A DNA stretch of 36,179 nt. It comes from Synechococcus sp. M44_DOE_062 (GTDB lineage: Bacteria > Cyanobacteriota > Cyanobacteriia > Thermostichales > Thermostichaceae). The DNA lies in assembly GCA_015295985.1 (NCBI GenBank), contig DVDX01000067.1, forward strand, positions 1 to 36,179, given 5' to 3'. Below, piece after piece: positions 7,169 through 31,781 of this stretch; within the stretch, counting starts at the first letter, position 1, and the number at the start of each line of letters is the position of its first letter. The position numbers were made by a program, and so were the translations under genes. The notes beneath the pieces are model-generated. The model was given only the letters and a program-made list of their open reading frames with translations. It had not been told where the DNA came from and searched no databases.

Positions 7169-8038
7169 GTGGACTGGGGCAGCCTGTTCTGGATTTTTCT
7201 GATCTTCAGCTCTTTGCAACCTCTGCTGAACCGTCGCGCCCAAGAGTTCCGGCGCTTGATGGCCATTCGGGAGTTGGAGCAAAAGCGGGGCAGCCGGGTG
7301 ATTCTGCTCATTCACCGCCAGGAGTCAATCAGTTTTTTGGGGATCCCGGTTTCCCGCTACATCAGCATTGAGGACTCGGAACAGGTATTGCGGGCAATTC
7401 GCCTTACCCCACCCAATACTCCGATTGATTTGATCTTGCATACCCCCGGTGGCCTGGTGCTGGCTACAGAGCAAATTGCCCGTGCCTTGATCCGCCATCC
7501 GGCCAAAGTGACGGTGTTTGTGCCTCACTACGCCATGTCGGGGGGGACGATGCTGGCCCTGGCCGCCGATGAAATCGTCATGGATGCCAATGCAGTCCTG
7601 GGGCCGGTGGATCCACAGGTGGGGGGGTATGCTGCCGCCAGTATTCTGCAGGTGGTGGCTGATAAACCCATTGCCGAAATCGACGACCAAACCCTGATCC
7701 TGGCGGATCTGGCCCGCAAAGCGATGCAACAGGTGCAGAACTTCGTGCGGGATCTCTTGAAGGACGATGTGCCCAAGCGCAAAATTGCCCCCGAACGGAT
7801 CGAGCCCCTCATCCAGTACCTAACCAGCGGACAAGTTACCCACGACTACCCGATCACCGCCGAAGAAGCTCAAAGGTTGGGCCTGCCGATTTCTACTGAG
7901 TTGCCACCCCAGATCTATGCCCTGATGGACTTGTACCCGCAGGCCACCATAGGCCGTCCTTCCGTACAGTACATCCCTGTTCCCTATGATCCCCGCCCCG
8001 CTCTGCCCAGAGGGGGCTCCCACTCTGGCCTAGGGTGA
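7169..8038 (+). CDS. Serine dehydrogenase proteinase (SDH/ClpP-crotonase fold) family protein
   Basis: 289 residues from GTG 7169, with GAGG upstream. It has a hydrophobic N-terminus (GSLFWIFLIFSSLQPLL) that probably anchors it to a membrane. The Clp/crotonase-like core follows: DLILHTPGG (oxyanion region, 91-95), then VPHYAMSGGTMLALAAD with probable nucleophile Ser124, then LGPVDPQVGG. This matches the SppA-like SDH proteinase family. The C-terminal part DYPITAEEAQRLGLPI is typical of the same group. A role in membrane-protein quality control is inferred. The last 9 nt overlap the convergent J-protein gene. Confidence 0.85.
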   Translation: MDWGSLFWIFLIFSSLQPLLNRRAQEFRRLMAIRELEQKRGSRVILLIHRQESISFLGIPVSRYISIEDSEQVLRAIRLTPPNTPIDLILHTPGGLVLATEQIARALIRHPAKVTVFVPHYAMSGGTMLALAADEIVMDANAVLGPVDPQVGGYAAASILQVVADKPIAEIDDQTLILADLARKAMQQVQNFVRDLLKDDVPKRKIAPERIEPLIQYLTSGQVTHDYPITAEEAQRLGLPISTELPPQIYALMDLYPQATIGRPSVQYIPVPYDPRPALPRGGSHSGLG

Positions 8039-8722
8039 GCTTTTGGCGTAAGCTTCCATGGCTTCCAGGCGCAGCCCTCTGGCCCGGCGAAACAGCTCTT
8101 GTCCAGTGTGTAGGTGGCGGTCGTCGAAGTTCAGCGGGAAATACTTCAGCTCCTCTAGGGCATCTTCTAAGTGGTTGAGGGCGTAGTAGAGGCGAGAGGC
8201 CACTCCTCCCAAGCTGCTGGGATTGGGAAGGCGGCGAAAGATCTGCTGGGCTTGGGCCAGTTTCTGCACACACTCTTCCAGATAGTCAGCAAAAGACTGC
8301 AACAGGTCGGGATCAAAGGGATCCGCCGCCAAAGCATTCAACTGAGGCTTTAGGGAAGACAGCAAGGGCCCCAACACTCGGTTTAGAGGGGTGTAGACCT
8401 GTCGGATCCAGGCTGCACGGGCAAGGGCTTCGTGGCTGACGGTTTCACGGGGGGATCCCGTCGGCTGGGGGCGGGGTGAGGTGCGGCTGGAGTGCAGTTG
8501 CCGGTCGTATTCGCGGCGAGATTGGGGATCCTTGAGCACCGCGTAGGCAGCGTTGATCTGGCGGATGCGCTCAGCGGTGGCCCGATCTTTTTTGGCCAGC
8601 AGGCTGTCAGGATGGTGGTACTTAACCAAACGACGGTAGGCGGACTTGATCTCCTCCGCCGTCGCCCCCACGGAAACCCCCAAAACTTCGTAATGGGATC
8701 CCGCTCCCGATCCGCTCTCCAT
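8030..8722 (-). CDS. J-domain (DnaJ-like) protein
   Basis: 230 residues from the ATG at 8722; an in-frame ATG at 8761 would add 13 residues. The N-terminus is a complete J domain (about residues 10-70): HYEVLGVSVGATAEEIKSAY, HPD at 37-39, then INAAYAVLKDPQSRREYD. There is no Gly/Phe stretch, no zinc centre and no DnaJ C-terminal domain. After a Ser/Pro/Arg linker comes an unclassified helical region of about 130 residues (LNRVLGPLLSSLKPQLNAL, ALEELKYFPLNFDDRHLHTG). It probably stimulates a DnaK for a specific client. It overlaps the SDH gene tail-to-tail by 9 nt. Confidence 0.88.
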   Translation of the reverse strand: MESGSGAGSHYEVLGVSVGATAEEIKSAYRRLVKYHHPDSLLAKKDRATAERIRQINAAYAVLKDPQSRREYDRQLHSSRTSPRPQPTGSPRETVSHEALARAAWIRQVYTPLNRVLGPLLSSLKPQLNALAADPFDPDLLQSFADYLEECVQKLAQAQQIFRRLPNPSSLGGVASRLYYALNHLEDALEELKYFPLNFDDRHLHTGQELFRRARGLRLEAMEAYAKSSP

Positions 8723-8806
8723 AATCCCTAGGCTTGCCGGAAAGAAAAGAAACTTCCACATTGTACCTGCAGCCTAGAATAAAGGTGAGCTTTCCGGTGC
8801 TGCCCC

Positions 8807-9100
8807 ATGTCTTCCGCCTCGCCCCAGGGATCCCCCAACCCTTTCAGTGCCCTCTTGGGGGCCACCATTGCCGTCAGTCTGGGCTACGGTTTTTTTCAAC
8901 TGCTGCTCTCGATGTTGGCCAAGTTGCCGCCAATCGATGTGGAGATTGGATCGTTGGCCCGTGGGATTAGCATTCTGGTGCGCTACCTGCTGGTCGGTTC
9001 CGTTTCCTTGATCGCGTTTATGTTTGCCCTGGTGGGGTTGGGGCTGGCGGCCTACTTTGTGCAATTGCTGGGAGAGCGGCTGACCTCCTCTCAGCGCTGA
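8807..9100 (+). CDS. DUF3082 family membrane protein
   Basis: 97 residues, two predicted membrane segments (LLGATIAVSLGYGFFQLLLSML and LLVGSVSLIAFMFALVGLGLAAYFVQLL). This matches the small cyanobacterial DUF3082 proteins, which have no known function. The gene is divergent from the J-domain gene with an 84-bp gap, so the two promoters are close or overlapping. Confidence 0.75.
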   Translation: MSSASPQGSPNPFSALLGATIAVSLGYGFFQLLLSMLAKLPPIDVEIGSLARGISILVRYLLVGSVSLIAFMFALVGLGLAAYFVQLLGERLTSSQR

Positions 9101-23673: not shown

Positions 23674-26049
23674 ATGGTTCTGGCAGAACAGCTCTCGACA
23701 AAACCGCTCACCGCCGATGAGCTTCGCAAAATGGATGCCTACTGGCGGGCCGCCAACTATCTGTCGGTCGGGCAAATCTATTTGATGGATAACCCGCTGC
23801 TGCGAGAACCCCTGAAAGTAGAACACGTGAAGCCACGCCTGCTGGGCCACTGGGGCACCACGCCTGGGTTGAACTTCATCTATGTGCATCTCAACCGCAT
23901 CATCAAACGGGAAAACCTCAACATCCTCTACATCACCGGCCCCGGCCACGGTGGCCCTGCTCTGGTGGCCAACACCTACTTGGAAGGCACCTACAGCGAG
24001 GTGTATCCCAACATCGGCCAAGACGCCGAAGGCCTGCGCAAGCTCTTCAAGCAATTCTCCTTCCCCGGCGGCGTGCCCAGCCACGTGGCTCCGGAAACCC
24101 CTGGCTCCATCCACGAGGGGGGAGAACTGGGCTATGCCCTGGCCCATGCCTTTGGGGCTGCCTTTGATAACCCCGATCTGCTGGTGGCCTGTGTGGTGGG
24201 GGATGGGGAAGCGGAAACCGGCCCCTTGGCCGCTTCCTGGCATTCCAACAAGTTCCTCAACCCCATCCACGACGGGGCAGTACTGCCGATTCTGCACCTG
24301 AACGGCTACAAGATTGCCAATCCCACTGTTTTGGCCCGCCTCAGCCGTGAAGAGCTGCAAAGCCTGTTTGCGGGCTACGGCTACAAGCCCTACTTTGTAG
24401 AAGGCTGCGAGCCTGCAGAAATGCACCAGTTGATGGCCGCCACTTTGGACACGGTGATCCACGAGATCCAAGAGATCCAGCAGCATGCCCGCAGCAAAGG
24501 GGATCCCACTCGTCCCCAATGGCCGATGATCATCCTGCGTACTCCCAAAGGCTGGACTGGCCCCAAAGCGGTAGAGGGCAAAAAGGTAGAAGATTTCTGG
24601 CGCTCCCACCAAGTGCCTCTGGCGGATCTGGCCAAAAAACCGGAGCACCTCAAGGCTCTGGAAGACTGGATGCGCAGCTACAAGCCGGAAGAGCTCTTCG
24701 ATGAAAATGGCCGTCTGCTGCCGGAGCTGCAAGAGCTGGCCCCCAAAGGGGAAAAACGCATGGGGGCTTTGCCCCACGCCAACGGCGGCCTGCTGACGCG
24801 GGAGCTGAAAATGCCGGATTTCCGTCGCTACGCCGTGCCTGTCCCCCGCCCCGGCACCACCGAAGCCGAGGCCACCCGGGTTCTGGGGCAATTTCTGCGG
24901 GATGTGATGAAGCTCAACCCCCACAACTTCCGTCTCTTTGGCCCCGATGAAACGGCTTCCAACCGCTTGGATGCTGTGTTTGAGGCCAGCAACCGCACCT
25001 GGGTAGCTCCTGTCTACGATTGGGACGAGCACCTCTCCCCAGATGGACGGGTGATGGAGATCCTCAGCGAGCACGTCTGTCAGGGCTGGCTAGAAGGCTA
25101 CCTGTTAACCGGGCGACACGGGTTCTTCTCCTGTTACGAAGCCTTTATCCACCTGGTGGACTCAATGTTCAACCAACATGCCAAATGGTTGAAAACCACC
25201 CGGCACATTCCTTGGCGGCGGCCCATTCCTTCCCTCAACTACCTGCTGACTTCCCATGTGTGGCGGCAGGATCACAACGGCTTCAGCCATCAGGATCCCG
25301 GCTTTTTGGATCACGTGGTCAACAAAAAGGCCGAAATCATCCGCGTCTACCTGCCCCCGGATACCAATACTCTGCTCTCGGTGGCCGACCACTGTCTGCG
25401 CAGTCGCCACTACGTGAATGTCATCGTGGCAGGCAAACAGCCGGCCCTGCAGTACCTGGATATGGATGCGGCCATCAAGCACTGCACCCAGGGCTTAGGG
25501 ATCTGGGAGTGGGCCAGCAACGATCAGGGTTCAGAGCCGGATGTGGTGATGGCCTGCTGCGGCGATGTGCCGACGATGGAAACCCTAGCGGCAGTGGACT
25601 TCCTACGGCAGCACCTGCCGGACATCAAGATCCGGGTGGTGAATGTGGTGAACTTGATGAAGCTGCAGCCTCCCAGCGAACACCCCCACGGCATCAGCGA
25701 TGTGGATTACGCCAGCATCTTCACGCCGGACAAGCCCATCGTGTTTGCCTTCCACGGCTATCCCTGGCTGATTCACCGCCTCACCTACCGTCGCCCCAAC
25801 CACCACAACTTGCACGTGCGCGGCTACAAGGAGGAGGGCACCACCACCACCCCCTTCGACATGTGTGTCCTCAACGAGGTGGATCGCTTCAGCTTGGCGG
25901 ACGATGTGTTGGATCGGGTGGAGCGCTTCAAGTACGAGCGGGCCCACATCAAGCAGATCATCCAGGATAAGCTGGTGGAGCACAAACACTACATCCGTGA
26001 GCACGGGGAAGATCTGCCGGAGGTGCGCAACTGGAAGTGGCCCTACTGA
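23674..26049 (+). CDS. xfp: Xylulose-5-phosphate/fructose-6-phosphate phosphoketolase
   Basis: 791 residues from ATG 23674, the usual length. A ThDP- and Mg-dependent enzyme that splits Xu5P or F6P with phosphate to acetyl-phosphate plus GAP or E4P. Visible: [33 protein letters not shown] (ThDP/Mg site, GDGE at 176-179), [30 protein letters not shown], and a C-terminal domain with [27 protein letters not shown]. It stands alone with no acetate kinase or phosphotransacetylase beside it. In cyanobacteria it gives a carbon-saving path from pentose phosphates to acetyl-phosphate in darkness or on acetate. Confidence 0.95.
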
Positions 26050-26126
26050 CACCTCTGGGCTCTGGCAGGATAGAGTTTTCTTGGGCTCTGCCTGCCAGAG
26101 TTTTCGGAAGTCTAGAGGTTGAGAGT

Positions 26127-27221
26127 GTGAGGGGTTCAGAAAGGGTGGATGCGGATACACTTCCCGATCTGGAGGTGGAAGAGACGGAGTGGGGAGGGAT
26201 GGCGCTCTCGCTGGGGCTGGGTTTGGCCCTCTCGACCCTTGTGATTGGGATCCGCCCCCAGGTGTTTGTTCCTTTTGGGTTGAGCGTGTTGGGTTCGGCC
26301 CTGCTGGGATCCCTGCTCGTCCCCGGGTTGCAGCGCTGGAAGGCGGGGCAGGTGATCCGCCAGGAGGGGCCCCAATCCCACCGAAAAAAAGCAGGCACAC
26401 CCACCATGGGCGGGATCAGCTTTTTGCCCGTGGGGCTGCTGGTGGCCGGGATTTGGAGCGGCTGGGATCCCCAGTGGCTGGCTGTCGCGCTGCTCACGCT
26501 GGCCTACGGTTTTGTCGGCTGGCTGGACGATTGGCTAGTGATCCGACAGCAATCCAACAAGGGGCTGTCTCCCCAACACAAGCTGTTGCTGCAGGTGGGG
26601 GTTGCCCTTGGGTTTTGTGTCTACCTGGCCTGGCAGGGGATCCCAACCGGTCTGGCCTTGCCAGGGATAGGTACCCTCTCTCTGGGTTGGCTGTTCTGGC
26701 CCTTGGCCCTGTTTGTGCTGGTGGGCACCAATAACGCCGTGAACCTCACCGATGGTATGGACGGCTTGGCGGCAGGGGTGGTGGCCATCCTGCTGGTTGG
26801 GCTGGGGCTCCTTCACAGGGATCCGGAGCTATCGGTGTTGGCCTTCGCCTTGAGCGGTGCCTGCTTGGGGTTTCTGGTTCACAACCACCACCGGGCGCGG
26901 CTGTTCATGGGTGATACCGGATCCCTGGGGTTGGGGGGCGCTCTGGCCGGGTTGGCGCTGCTGGGGGATCAGCTCTGGGCCTTGGCCCTGATGGGGGGAG
27001 TGCTGGTGGCAGAGGCGCTGTCGGTGATGCTGCAGGTGGGCTACTTCAAATACACCAAGCGCAAAACCGGCGCAGGCAAACGGCTGTTGCGCATGTCGCC
27101 CTTGCACCACCATCTGGAGCTGGGGGGCTGGTCGGAGGTGCAGGTGGTGGGATCCCTCTATGGAATAACGGCGCTGCTGGTGGGGCTGGGTTGGGCCTGG
27201 TGGCACTGGGCGGGAATTTGA
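26127..27221 (+). CDS. mraY: Phospho-N-acetylmuramoyl-pentapeptide-transferase
   Basis: 364 residues from GTG 26127, with TAGAGG 6 nt upstream. The open frame runs back into xfp (26037), and GTG 26145 or ATG 26199 are alternatives. MraY attaches phospho-MurNAc-pentapeptide to undecaprenyl phosphate, making lipid I in the plasma membrane. Motifs: KKAGTPTMGGI, FVGWLDDWLV (catalytic Asp pair), NNAVNLTDGMDGLAAG, RLFMGDTGSLGLGGALAG and MSPLHHHLELGGWSE. About ten hydrophobic segments. The N-terminal 25 residues are acidic (DADTLPDLEVEE), unlike E. coli MraY. It is not in a mur/fts cluster. Confidence 0.94.
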   Translation: MRGSERVDADTLPDLEVEETEWGGMALSLGLGLALSTLVIGIRPQVFVPFGLSVLGSALLGSLLVPGLQRWKAGQVIRQEGPQSHRKKAGTPTMGGISFLPVGLLVAGIWSGWDPQWLAVALLTLAYGFVGWLDDWLVIRQQSNKGLSPQHKLLLQVGVALGFCVYLAWQGIPTGLALPGIGTLSLGWLFWPLALFVLVGTNNAVNLTDGMDGLAAGVVAILLVGLGLLHRDPELSVLAFALSGACLGFLVHNHHRARLFMGDTGSLGLGGALAGLALLGDQLWALALMGGVLVAEALSVMLQVGYFKYTKRKTGAGKRLLRMSPLHHHLELGGWSEVQVVGSLYGITALLVGLGWAWWHWAGI

Positions 27222-27408
27222 GTTGGCGAGCTGGGGATCCACTGTGATTCCAATGGGGGGCCGACCTCAAAGGGGTCATCCCGAAGCCGATGGAAAGTTG
27301 GCCCCGCAGGTTCGTGCTCTCCCCAGGCATTGTGAGCATGGTGAACATTCTGCCCAGAGGCAGATCCTCTACAGTCTTGACACACCATTAATAAGCAAGG
27401 GTTGCGCT

Positions 27409-27498
27409 ATGGATCGAGGCCGCCGCATTGTTCACGCCCTATCTTCCCTGAGCCACCTCTTTAAGCGTAAGCACGGGATCCCTTTGATGTCGTTGTAG
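27409..27498 (+). pseudogene. Displaced signal-peptide start of the following binding-protein gene
   Basis: ATG 27409 has AAGGG 7-8 nt upstream and begins MDRGRRIVHALSSL, then FKRKHGIPLMSL before a TAG at 27496-27498. The next gene's frame begins at 27498, offset by +2. Adding one base near 27496 would fuse them into a basic n-region (FKRKHG) plus hydrophobic core (IPLMSL..VGMALAPTTLLG) plus GSQAQ. This strongly resembles one signal peptide split by a one-base deletion. A TTGACA at 27377-27382 lies upstream. Confidence 0.5.
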
Positions 27499-28562
27499 TG
27501 GGCATGGCACTGGCCCCGACAACCCTGCTGGGAATGGGATCCCAAGCCCAGAGCCGGCTGGTGGATGTGAAACTTCAACTGAAATGGTTCCCGCAAGCCC
27601 AGTTCGCTGGATACTTGATCGCCAAGGAAAAAGGATTTTATGAAGCCGAAGGTCTGAACGTTGAGTTGCTGCCAATTGGAGATCAATCCCCCATCCAGAC
27701 GGTGGTCGTGGGCGGAGCTGACTTCGGCAATACCTGGATCACCGACCTGCTGACTGCCCGGGCGCAGGGGTTGCCCGTGGTTCACATCGCCCAGATCTCT
27801 CAGAAATCGGGCTATGCGATGGTGTCTCTCAAATCCAGCGGGATCAAAAGCCCTGCCGACTTCAAAGGCAAAAAGGTGGGCATTTGGCCTTCTGGCAACG
27901 AATATCCGGCCCTGGCTCTGATGAAAGCCTTCAACTTGACCACCAGCCTGGATACAGGGGTGACCAATCCCGATGTGGAGCTGATCACCTATGGCTTCGA
28001 TCCGGCTCTGGTCTTTCCCGACAAGGTGGATGTAGCCTCGGCCATGCTCTACAACGAGCTGAATCAGATCGTGGGTTTGGGCTACCCCCTGAGCGAACTC
28101 AACGTCATGCACCTGCCAGACTACGGCATCAACCTCTTGGAAGACCTGCTGTTCACCACCGAGCGTGTTTTGAACGAAAGCAACTTTAAGGGATCCGGCC
28201 AATCGGGTAAAGCCATCGCGGCCAAATTGGTGAAAGCCTCGATTCAGGGTTGGGATTACGCTGTAGCCAACCCAGAAGAAACGGTGCAGGTGGTTCTCAC
28301 CTTCTGCGGCGCAACCTGCAAGGGATCCGGCTCGGAAGCGGATCCCCTCAAGCACCAAACCTGGCAAATGGCTGAAATTGCCAAGCTGTATCAGGCGGGC
28401 CCCACCCTGGAAGGCAATGCTGGGTTGCTGGTGCCTTCGGTGTATCGGGCCAATGTGGAAACCCTGAAATCTCTGGGCATTCTCAGTGCCGATCCGCCCG
28501 CTGCGGTGGTGGATTATTCGGTGTGGGAAATGGCCACCGGCAAATCGGCCCCCACCGGCTAA
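27498..28562 (+). CDS. NMT1/THI5-like ABC transporter substrate-binding protein, start probably disrupted
   Basis: 354 residues from GTG 27498 (or ATG 27504). The domain begins VDVKLQLKWFPQAQFAGYLIAKEKGFYEAEGLNVEL, the start of the NMT1/THI5-like periplasmic family, and continues DFGNTWITDLLTARAQGLPVVHIAQISQKSGYAMVS. Such proteins feed ABC importers for thiamine precursors, riboflavin, alkanesulfonates or similar solutes, and the ligand cannot be told from sequence. From GTG 27498 the signal would lack a basic n-region. The proper n-region seems to lie in the other frame just upstream. No permease or ATPase gene is adjacent. Confidence 0.8.
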   Translation: MGMALAPTTLLGMGSQAQSRLVDVKLQLKWFPQAQFAGYLIAKEKGFYEAEGLNVELLPIGDQSPIQTVVVGGADFGNTWITDLLTARAQGLPVVHIAQISQKSGYAMVSLKSSGIKSPADFKGKKVGIWPSGNEYPALALMKAFNLTTSLDTGVTNPDVELITYGFDPALVFPDKVDVASAMLYNELNQIVGLGYPLSELNVMHLPDYGINLLEDLLFTTERVLNESNFKGSGQSGKAIAAKLVKASIQGWDYAVANPEETVQVVLTFCGATCKGSGSEADPLKHQTWQMAEIAKLYQAGPTLEGNAGLLVPSVYRANVETLKSLGILSADPPAAVVDYSVWEMATGKSAPTG

Positions 28563-28786: not shown

Positions 28787-31414
28787 ATGCTGCCGAGTGG
28801 CTCCAAAAATTCCGATAGGCCAGCGGCACAGTCAGAGCCCAGCGATTCGGTCTCCGGTCTGCCGATGCGAGCGGCTCCTTCTCCGGCAGGTGCTGTCGAT
28901 CTTTCCTCAGCACCGCCAAAGGCAATTGCTCCCTACGTGGTGTTGCACGGCCATTTCTATCAGCCGCCTCGAGAGGATCCGTGCCTCAACCGCATTCAGC
29001 GACAGCCGAGTGCCAGCCCCTTTCACGACTGGAACGAGCGCATTTTGGCGGAATGTTACCGCCCCAACGCCTTTGCCCGCGTTCTGGACGACCAAGGACG
29101 GGTGGTGCGCATTGTCAACAACTATGAATTCTTGAGTTTTAACTTCGGCCCTACTCTCCTCTCTTGGTTAGAGGAGCATGACATTGAAGTTTACCAACGC
29201 ATTTTGGCTGGCGACCGCCTTAGCGCCGAGCGGCTTGAGGGTCATGGCAATGCCATCGCCCAAGTGTACAACCACGTCATCCTGCCCCTGGCCAACGAGC
29301 GAGACAAGTACACCCAGATCCGCTGGGGAATCGCCGATTTCCAACACCGCTTCGGGCGCTATCCCCAGGGGATGTGGCTGGCCGAAACTGCCATTGATGC
29401 AGCAACGGTCACGGCCTTGGTTGAGTGTGGGATCCGCTTCGTCATTTTGGCTCCCAGCCAAGCGCAGCGCATTCGCCCCTTGGGACACACGGAGTGGATC
29501 GACGTTAGCCAAAACCAGATCGATCCCCGCCGGCCCTACCGCTGCTTTACCCCCGACCGGGAGGGGTACTTGGATATTTTCTTTTTCGATGGCCCCATTT
29601 CCTGTGACTTGAGCTTTGGGGATATCGTCTACAGCACCCACTCCCTGGCGGAGCGGATCCGTTCCGCCCTGCGCCCGGATAAAGAGGGGGAAGCCTATCT
29701 GATCAACTGTGCCACCGATGGCGAGACTTTTGGCCACCACAAGCGGGGTGTAGAACGCACACTGGCCTATGCCTTTTGCGAGGAATTTCCCCGCCGGGGC
29801 TGGCAGGTGGGCAATTACAGCCATTTTCTCAGCCAACATCCCCCCACTTGGGAGGTGCAACTGAAACCGGTCACTGCCTGGAGTTGTGCCCACGGGGTAG
29901 GACGGTGGTCGCGAGACTGTGGCTGTGGGGCGGTGGGAGGGTGGCACCAACGCTGGCGGCAACCGCTGCGGGAGGCCCTCAACTGGCTGCGGGATCAGCT
30001 AGCCGAGATCTACGAGACAGAGGCCAGAGCCTACCTGCGGGATCCCTGGCTGGCGCGGGATCGCTACATCGAAGTGATTTTGGATCGGGAGCGCTGCGAT
30101 GCCTTTTTGCAGGAGCACCAGAGCCACCGCCTCACTACCGAAGATCGGGTGCAAGTGCTGCGCCTGTTGGAGATGCAGCGCTACAGCCAGTTGATGTTCA
30201 CCAGTTGTGGCTGGTTTTTCGAGGAGCTATCCCGTCCTGAAGGGGTGCAGATCCTGCGTTACGCGGCACGGGCTATCCAGTTGGCGGCAGCAGTGGCAGA
30301 TGTAAGTCTGGAAGAGGAGTTTTTGCAGCGCCTGAGCAAGGCCCCCAGCAACCTTGACCTCTACAGAGATGGCAAGGGGGTCTACTGCGCCTTGGTGCGC
30401 CCCAGCTTGATCAGCCCACAGCGGTTGGTGGCCCGCCACGCCATGTTTTCCCTGTTCGATGGGATCCCCCGTTCCCAAGGATATGTGCTGGATCAAGTGG
30501 ATCAAGAGCGCTTGAGGATAGGGGGATCGACGCTGGTCATTGGGCAGGTGAAGCTTACCTTTCCCACCACCCGCGAAGAGCACGATCTAATCTACGCCAT
30601 GCTCCACCTTGGTGGCTGGGACTTCCAATGCGGCGTCAAGCCGTTTGCCGGGCGGCGCATCTACGAGCAGATAAAAGCGCGGCTGCTGGCCGGATCCCAC
30701 AGTCGAATACAGATGATCCTGACCCTGCAAGACCTGTTTGGGCCGGAAACCTTCGACCTCAACGCCCTGAACGACGAAGACCGGCAGCAGATGATGCGCT
30801 GGCTCACCCAAGATACCCTAGACCGCCTGGCTCAGCTCTATCGCCAAACCTACCTGGACAATTACGGGGTCTTGATGGCCTTTCGGGCCGATGGCCTGCC
30901 GATCCCGGAAGAGTTGTTGGCTGCCGCTCAGATCACCCTCAACCAACGCCTGCTGACCAGTTTGCGGGCAATGGAAATGGAGGAGGGCAAGCGGGATCAC
31001 CTGCTGGAATTGCGGGCCATTGTGCGTGAGGCCGAGCAGTTGGGATGCCAGTTGCGGCGGGAAGAGGCAGCCCGCGTTTTGGATCGGCTCCTGCAGCGGG
31101 GGATGTGGCACCTTGCCCGTGCTTTTGAGCCGGAGACCTTCAGCGAACAGCTCTACAACTTGGAAGAATGGCTGCAATTGGCTGCAGACCTACACCTGCC
31201 CATCAACCTGGATCGCCTGCAAGAGCTCTACCTGACAGCGCTAGAGCGTCAAGTTGGCCCCCGTTGCCCGGCTTGGCCCCAAGAAGATTGCCGAGGCATT
31301 TCTGCCGAAAATCTACACCGCCTCTTACAGATTGGGCAGCGGATTCGGGTTAACGTCAACGCCTGGCTGCGTCACTTACAACCCCAAGATTACGGTCACT
31401 TCGATTCAAAATAG
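28787..31414 (+). CDS. Glycoside hydrolase family 57 / DUF3536 protein
   Basis: 875 residues from ATG 28787, with AAAAGGAG 9 nt upstream. The GH57 catalytic domain spans about residues 48-390: VVLHGHFYQPPREDPCLNRIQ, EYLDIFFFDGPIS-type core, WLAETAID with probable nucleophile Glu200, and CATDGETFGHH with Asp311. A DUF3536 helical C-terminal region follows. GH57 members act on alpha-glucans (amylase, 4-alpha-glucanotransferase, branching), so a glycogen-related role is inferred; the exact activity is unknown. The last residues (YGHFDSK) and stop are encoded by the end of a MITE (from 31391), so the native C-terminus has probably been replaced. The gene stands alone. Confidence 0.88.
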   Translation: MLPSGSKNSDRPAAQSEPSDSVSGLPMRAAPSPAGAVDLSSAPPKAIAPYVVLHGHFYQPPREDPCLNRIQRQPSASPFHDWNERILAECYRPNAFARVLDDQGRVVRIVNNYEFLSFNFGPTLLSWLEEHDIEVYQRILAGDRLSAERLEGHGNAIAQVYNHVILPLANERDKYTQIRWGIADFQHRFGRYPQGMWLAETAIDAATVTALVECGIRFVILAPSQAQRIRPLGHTEWIDVSQNQIDPRRPYRCFTPDREGYLDIFFFDGPISCDLSFGDIVYSTHSLAERIRSALRPDKEGEAYLINCATDGETFGHHKRGVERTLAYAFCEEFPRRGWQVGNYSHFLSQHPPTWEVQLKPVTAWSCAHGVGRWSRDCGCGAVGGWHQRWRQPLREALNWLRDQLAEIYETEARAYLRDPWLARDRYIEVILDRERCDAFLQEHQSHRLTTEDRVQVLRLLEMQRYSQLMFTSCGWFFEELSRPEGVQILRYAARAIQLAAAVADVSLEEEFLQRLSKAPSNLDLYRDGKGVYCALVRPSLISPQRLVARHAMFSLFDGIPRSQGYVLDQVDQERLRIGGSTLVIGQVKLTFPTTREEHDLIYAMLHLGGWDFQCGVKPFAGRRIYEQIKARLLAGSHSRIQMILTLQDLFGPETFDLNALNDEDRQQMMRWLTQDTLDRLAQLYRQTYLDNYGVLMAFRADGLPIPEELLAAAQITLNQRLLTSLRAMEMEEGKRDHLLELRAIVREAEQLGCQLRREEAARVLDRLLQRGMWHLARAFEPETFSEQLYNLEEWLQLAADLHLPINLDRLQELYLTALERQVGPRCPAWPQEDCRGISAENLHRLLQIGQRIRVNVNAWLRHLQPQDYGHFDSK

Positions 31415-31707: not shown

Positions 31708-31781
<74 letters not shown>

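Follow-up and report, generated by a model that had tools for sequence, protein, structure and literature searches.

Does the gene for a substrate-binding protein (SBP) in this stretch of DNA carry a genuine frame break at its start, and what would such a break mean for the importer that the protein serves? The window, meaning the whole stretch that was analysed, is contig C1 (36,179 bases) of the source genome G000, a 2.93-Mb draft assembly of 90 contigs that appears to come from a hot-spring cyanobacterium. A preliminary description of this DNA had reported two reading frames at the gene start, one running through the basic stretch FKRKHG to a TAG and the other carrying the mature protein, and we found both in the sequence as described. 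The frame opened by the ATG at 27409 encodes FKRKHG and yields 29 residues before the TAG at 27496-27498. The mature frame has an upstream stop codon (TAA, 27468-27470); its first possible start is the GTG at 27498, followed by an ATG at 27504, and it ends at 28562 (Table 1).

Table 1. Positions of the features discussed in the text, in window coordinates.
Feature	Position	Strand	Remark
Upstream neighbour, MraY-like glycosyl transferase family 4	26037-27221	plus	flank, not a transporter part
Stretch absent from the nearest relative, G004	27277-28510	plus	flanks kept and joined in G004
Conserved 5' leader (60 bases)	27319-27378	plus	perhaps promoter, operator or regulatory region
Out-of-frame start: signal-peptide n-region and first part of hydrophobic core	27409-27498	plus	ATG aligned in both orthologues
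Frame-break site	27490-27500	plus	one base fewer than both relatives (alignment)
Mature frame: 354-residue NMT1/THI5-like SBP	27498-28562	plus	
Downstream neighbour, GH57/DUF3536 protein	28787-31414	plus	same in G003 and G005; flank, not a transporter part
tRNA gene	31708-31781	minus	no other Rfam match in the window reaches gathering score

We compared the gene with its homologues in the same genus. Matches at E <=1e-50 were present in three of six genomes, namely G000 and the orthologue carriers G003 and G005, whose proteins are 93% and 92% identical to the mature frame, respectively. In both orthologues, a single frame that opens at an ATG aligned with window position 27409 (L002:1405 and L003:1411) encodes a basic n-region, a long hydrophobic core and then the mature protein; counted from their first starts, these unbroken frames span L002:1243-2565 and L003:1309-2565. 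From the ATG to the shared motif GGCATGG, the window has 92 bases, G003 has 99 and G005 has 93. The two relatives are thus two codons apart, and the window alone is out of frame. With the mature frame so similar to the orthologues, the observation is more than chance. This confirmed that the given sequence does contain a frame break. The frameshift proposed between signal peptide and mature domain therefore stands relative to the orthologues, but not at that location: the break lies inside the signal peptide, separating the first and second parts of the hydrophobic core. Homologues had been expected to show a continuous signal peptide with the same n-region. The continuous signal peptide was present in G003 and G005, and the n-region is alike in position and charge but not in its letters, which are weakly conserved (across 27408-27491, all three sequences agree in 10-16 of 30 columns). 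Neither orthologue starts at 27498-27504 with no similarity upstream, the pattern that the preliminary description had named as contrary to a frameshift.

The suggestion that the protein might not be exported was sound. G003 and G005 have both elements of a Sec export signal, a charged n-region and a hydrophobic core, in the frame of the mature protein. The window does not: the longest product of the mature frame has no charged n-region, and its hydrophobic core carries a proline in place of the leucine of both orthologues. By a simple hydropathy score, the best 12-residue segment of the longest in-frame leader reached 1.25 in the window, compared to 1.95-3.27 in the 24 readable loci among 37 homologous ones (G003, G005 and G027 included; the 13 loci without a readable motif uncounted). 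Most of the wider homologues belong to Deinococcota, and the starts of all were chosen by a rule that requires K or R near the start, so that their charge is no independent evidence. By inspection, no purine-rich ribosome site precedes 27498, and most of residues 1-18 have a pLDDT below 50 in the structure model. Having lost its charged n-region and some of its hydrophobic core, the product should stay in the cytoplasm, and export of the binding protein was probably lost in the source strain. Importers of this class need their receptor outside the inner membrane. Uptake should therefore fail despite the open frames of the permease and ATPase genes, and we infer that this importer no longer functions in uptake. 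Among the wider homologues, one from a Trueperaceae MAG (L058:2001-3032) shows two stop codons in its translated match, which may reflect a broken copy, an error in the MAG or a gapped match.

The leader upstream of the gene is conserved in 24-26 of 30 columns among the window, G003 and G005, versus 10-17 of 30 just upstream and 14-17 of 30 just downstream, and by inspection this conservation is not that of a protein frame. A pattern search found no sigma-70-like site in it. When positions 27326-27385 were used as a query, the leader did not recur in the other G000 or G004 stretches searched; two matches turned up, 14-15 bases long and confined to G004. A weak 9-base repeat, GCATGGTGA, lies inside the conserved leader at 27327-27348.

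The assignment of the mature protein to the NMT1/THI5-like binding proteins was borne out by a match to PF09084 of 146.3 bits (1.6e-42) against a gathering score of 20.5. The structure model (pLDDT 90.7) has the full periplasmic binding protein fold, with 4nmy_A (E 4.3e-22) and 3ix1_A (5.9e-20) as the best Foldseek matches and TM scores to the target of 0.80 and 0.82. These two entries, a thiamin-bound protein and a FAMP-binding protein, are the best PDB matches by both sequence and fold. The window protein shares family and fold with them, yet it is only 24% and 22% identical, respectively, and its signal peptide is out of frame. We take FAMP-binding proteins like 3ix1 to be of the ThiY type. 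As a lead only, a pyrimidine-like ligand is suggested by the fold and by the genes found beside it in the operons of other bacteria. No TPP riboswitch reached the Rfam gathering score in the window, and thiamin riboswitch control was dropped, the one match at that score being the tRNA gene. A literature search returned nothing on the binding-protein gene.

Apart from the break, the mature frame itself bears little sign of decay. Receptor dN/dS was 0.037 between G000 and G003 and 0.039 between G000 and G005, below all three controls measured in the same way (MraY 0.155-0.163, GH57 0.071-0.073, phosphoketolase 0.046-0.054). The permeases, at 0.082-0.147, are above the receptor and within the control range; the ATPase was compared over 158 codons only, starting from an internal Met, and with dS values of 1.7-1.8 against G003 and G005 this comparison is near saturation. 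The low receptor value indicates that purifying selection lasted until very recently and that any decay is young. A test for relaxed selection showed only a slightly raised dN, and there is no stop codon in the mature frame; with neither relaxed selection nor further lesions, the gene is at most a very young pseudogene. If all the excess dN over the G003-G005 rate were neutral drift, the broken state would span roughly 0.017 of synonymous distance as an upper bound. The dS between G000 and G004 is 0.16-0.23, and we estimate that the break has existed for no more than roughly one fifth of the period since these two split. Recent pseudogenes made by a single-base indel carry one lesion in an otherwise conserved frame and belong to a dispensable system. 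The present case differs from the typical one in that the mature domain is completely readable and only the export signal is cut off.

We sought the partner genes with the importer parts of Meiothermus as queries. In records titled Meiothermus, the same importer stands in a pyrimidine/hydantoin-type operon, with the SBP gene after two permease genes and an ATPase gene. Flanking genes encode a dihydropyrimidinase (TIGR02033, above cut-off) and a hydantoinase/carbamoylase-family amidase (TIGR01879, above cut-off), with one further ORF between the dihydropyrimidinase and ATPase genes. The Meiothermus SBPs are 63-66% identical to the window protein, and across G000, G003, G005 and G027 the permeases are 51-57% and the ATPases 66-69% identical to those of Meiothermus. 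In contrast to the clustered Meiothermus genes, those of G000, G003 and G005 are scattered, and the best dihydropyrimidinase match in these three genomes is only 28-29% identical. In G000, permease 1 (C14:2548-3423, L157:2548-3423; 53% identical to Meiothermus), permease 2 (C10:72035-73072, L168:12035-13075; 55%) and the ATPase (C12:40828-41583, L173 about 828-1583; 69%) all have open frames. Together with the SBP gene they occupy four different contigs, none beside another part, and with two permeases and an ATPase of matching family, G000 holds the parts of a complete ABC importer. The two permease genes adjoin in G027.

Close matches to all four parts were present in G000, G003, G005 and G027, compared to lesser paralogues (ATPase 50-53%, permeases up to 35%) or nothing in G001, G002 and G004. 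By close matches, the four parts are thus all-or-none in seven genomes. A search of 388 genomes from the class (evenly drawn from a larger group; at most five candidates scored per genome; our chosen cut-offs 1e-60 and 1e-45) located SBP and permease 2 in the same four and nowhere else, although three of the four belong to one genus and the co-distribution rests on few independent events. In alignments inspected by eye, no regulatory motif common to the upstream regions of the four genes was evident. Their co-distribution suggests that they form one ABC importer. A dispersed importer has a counterpart in N-I (natA-E) of Anabaena PCC 7120, a carrier of amino acids (TCDB 3.A.1.4) whose subunits, in a passage of PMC4500139, bear distant ORF numbers and so lie at separate chromosomal places; the difference is that in our case the link among the four parts comes solely from their co-distribution. 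This scattered importer, coming and going as a unit, is a more informative result than the frame break.

The nearest relative among the genomes compared, G004, shares 92-94% DNA identity with the window around the gene and has lost most of it in a deletion (Table 1). The last 52 bases of the SBP gene survive as a scar at the deletion junction (L139 = G004:C1, 5907-5970). At both permease sites in G004 the flanks are kept and the gene is missing. Empty sites were thus seen for the SBP and two permease genes, and no counterpart of the ATPase neighbourhood turned up in the G004 stretches searched. In G001 and G002, the places compared contain no remnant of the receptor gene. Very probably, the binding-protein gene was present in the ancestor shared by G000 and G004; the latter lost it and is now without the other parts too. 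Since G004 does without all four genes, the system appears to be dispensable in this clade.

The main rival to a real deletion is a sequencing or assembly error, under which the gene would be intact in the cells and the importer functional; we regard this as unlikely, though it deserves serious weight. It would fit the strong purifying selection on the receptor, the open frames in the rest of the importer, and the draft state of the assembly in its 90 contigs, and an error would explain the open partner and mature frames equally well. Against it, the break site contains no repeat and no homopolymer longer than three bases, the usual seats of consensus indel errors, and frame breaks look rare in the compared part of the G000 assembly. 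In a comparison of 683 kb of G000 with 1.22 Mb of the 3.05-Mb G004 genome, 150 of 153 G004 proteins covered to at least 80% map to G000 in one frame, as do 140 of 147 G000 proteins in the reverse direction. A protein was counted as single-frame if one stretch alone matched or one covered 95%, and with the 80% entry limit, breaks within the outer 20% of a protein may escape the count. Of the three exceptions, those at L161 (gaps of 12, 13 and 12) and at window 8033-8868 (gaps of 12 and 5) were inspected and have no single-base gap; the third lies in L162, and we read the L161 case as a wrong-strand ORF. An error-ridden assembly was rejected as a blanket explanation on these counts. The rarity of frame breaks elsewhere, together with the absence of a repeat or long homopolymer at the site, favours a real change. 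At window 8698-8745, near the 5' end of an ORF on the minus strand (8030-8761), length differences of 12 and 5 bases to G004 were observed; the 5-base difference falls between the first ATG (8761) and the second in-frame ATG (8722), and the choice of start decides whether the frame differs.

It is improbable, and more so than an error, that the change is real but tolerated, with a protein made from GTG 27498 or ATG 27504 that is poorly exported or works inside the cell. The TAG overlaps the GTG (27498-27500), so that coupled re-initiation is possible, and both the mature frame and the 5' leader are kept. Such a product would, however, have no charged n-region and only a weak, short hydrophobic core with the proline noted above, no purine-rich ribosome site precedes its start, and the low model confidence over its first residues fits a useless leader without proving one. 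A programmed or phase-variable switch, by slippage or ribosomal frameshifting, we consider very improbable even though only one base separates the two frames. The phase variation that had been suggested did not survive inspection and was rejected: there is no simple, tandem or direct repeat at the break, and the sole array in the region is the weak one in the upstream leader. Likewise, -1 ribosomal frameshifting was rejected in the lack, by inspection, of an X XXY YYZ slippery heptamer at 27489-27495, and the two relatives are without the break. We give equally little credence to the possibility that the upstream frame is unrelated noncoding DNA and the gene truly begins at 27498-27504. The weakly conserved letters of the n-region would agree with this, but a later true start was rejected because both orthologues read through from the aligned ATG into the mature protein. 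They need the upstream frame for a charged, long signal peptide, and the 24 readable homologous loci have their hydrophobic core in frame with the mature protein.

We therefore lean, by a modest degree, towards a real, recent and export-abolishing change in the signal peptide of a dispensable importer's receptor, one that the cells themselves would carry, rather than the assembly alone. A one-base deletion would have arisen recently within the signal peptide, such that translation from ATG 27409 stops at 27496 after its short peptide. The product from either later start would comprise the complete binding domain behind an incomplete signal peptide, with no charged n-region and a shortened hydrophobic core, and a cytoplasmic binding protein would leave the importer without a receptor. 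This would be bearable for an importer whose four genes are all missing from the nearest relative. Unless it is a sequencing error, the event looks like an ordinary kind, a gene loss caught at its start. More tentatively, an importer encoded at four loci may have been gained and lost as a unit in an apparently thermophilic genus of cyanobacteria, with loss starting at the export signal of its receptor. On the same tentative reading, the other parts would still be open in the source genome, and the sister species would preserve the final state, with all four genes gone and one readable scar.

If the break is an error, the outcome is a small correction to one draft genome. As a warning for annotation, software that places the start at 27498 automatically would mask the frame break as well as the loss of the signal peptide. 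If the change is real, the loss of a nutrient importer would be seen at a first step that can be dated, with two sister species to compare, and an all-or-none distribution would look like a means of identifying unlinked genes as parts of a single machine.
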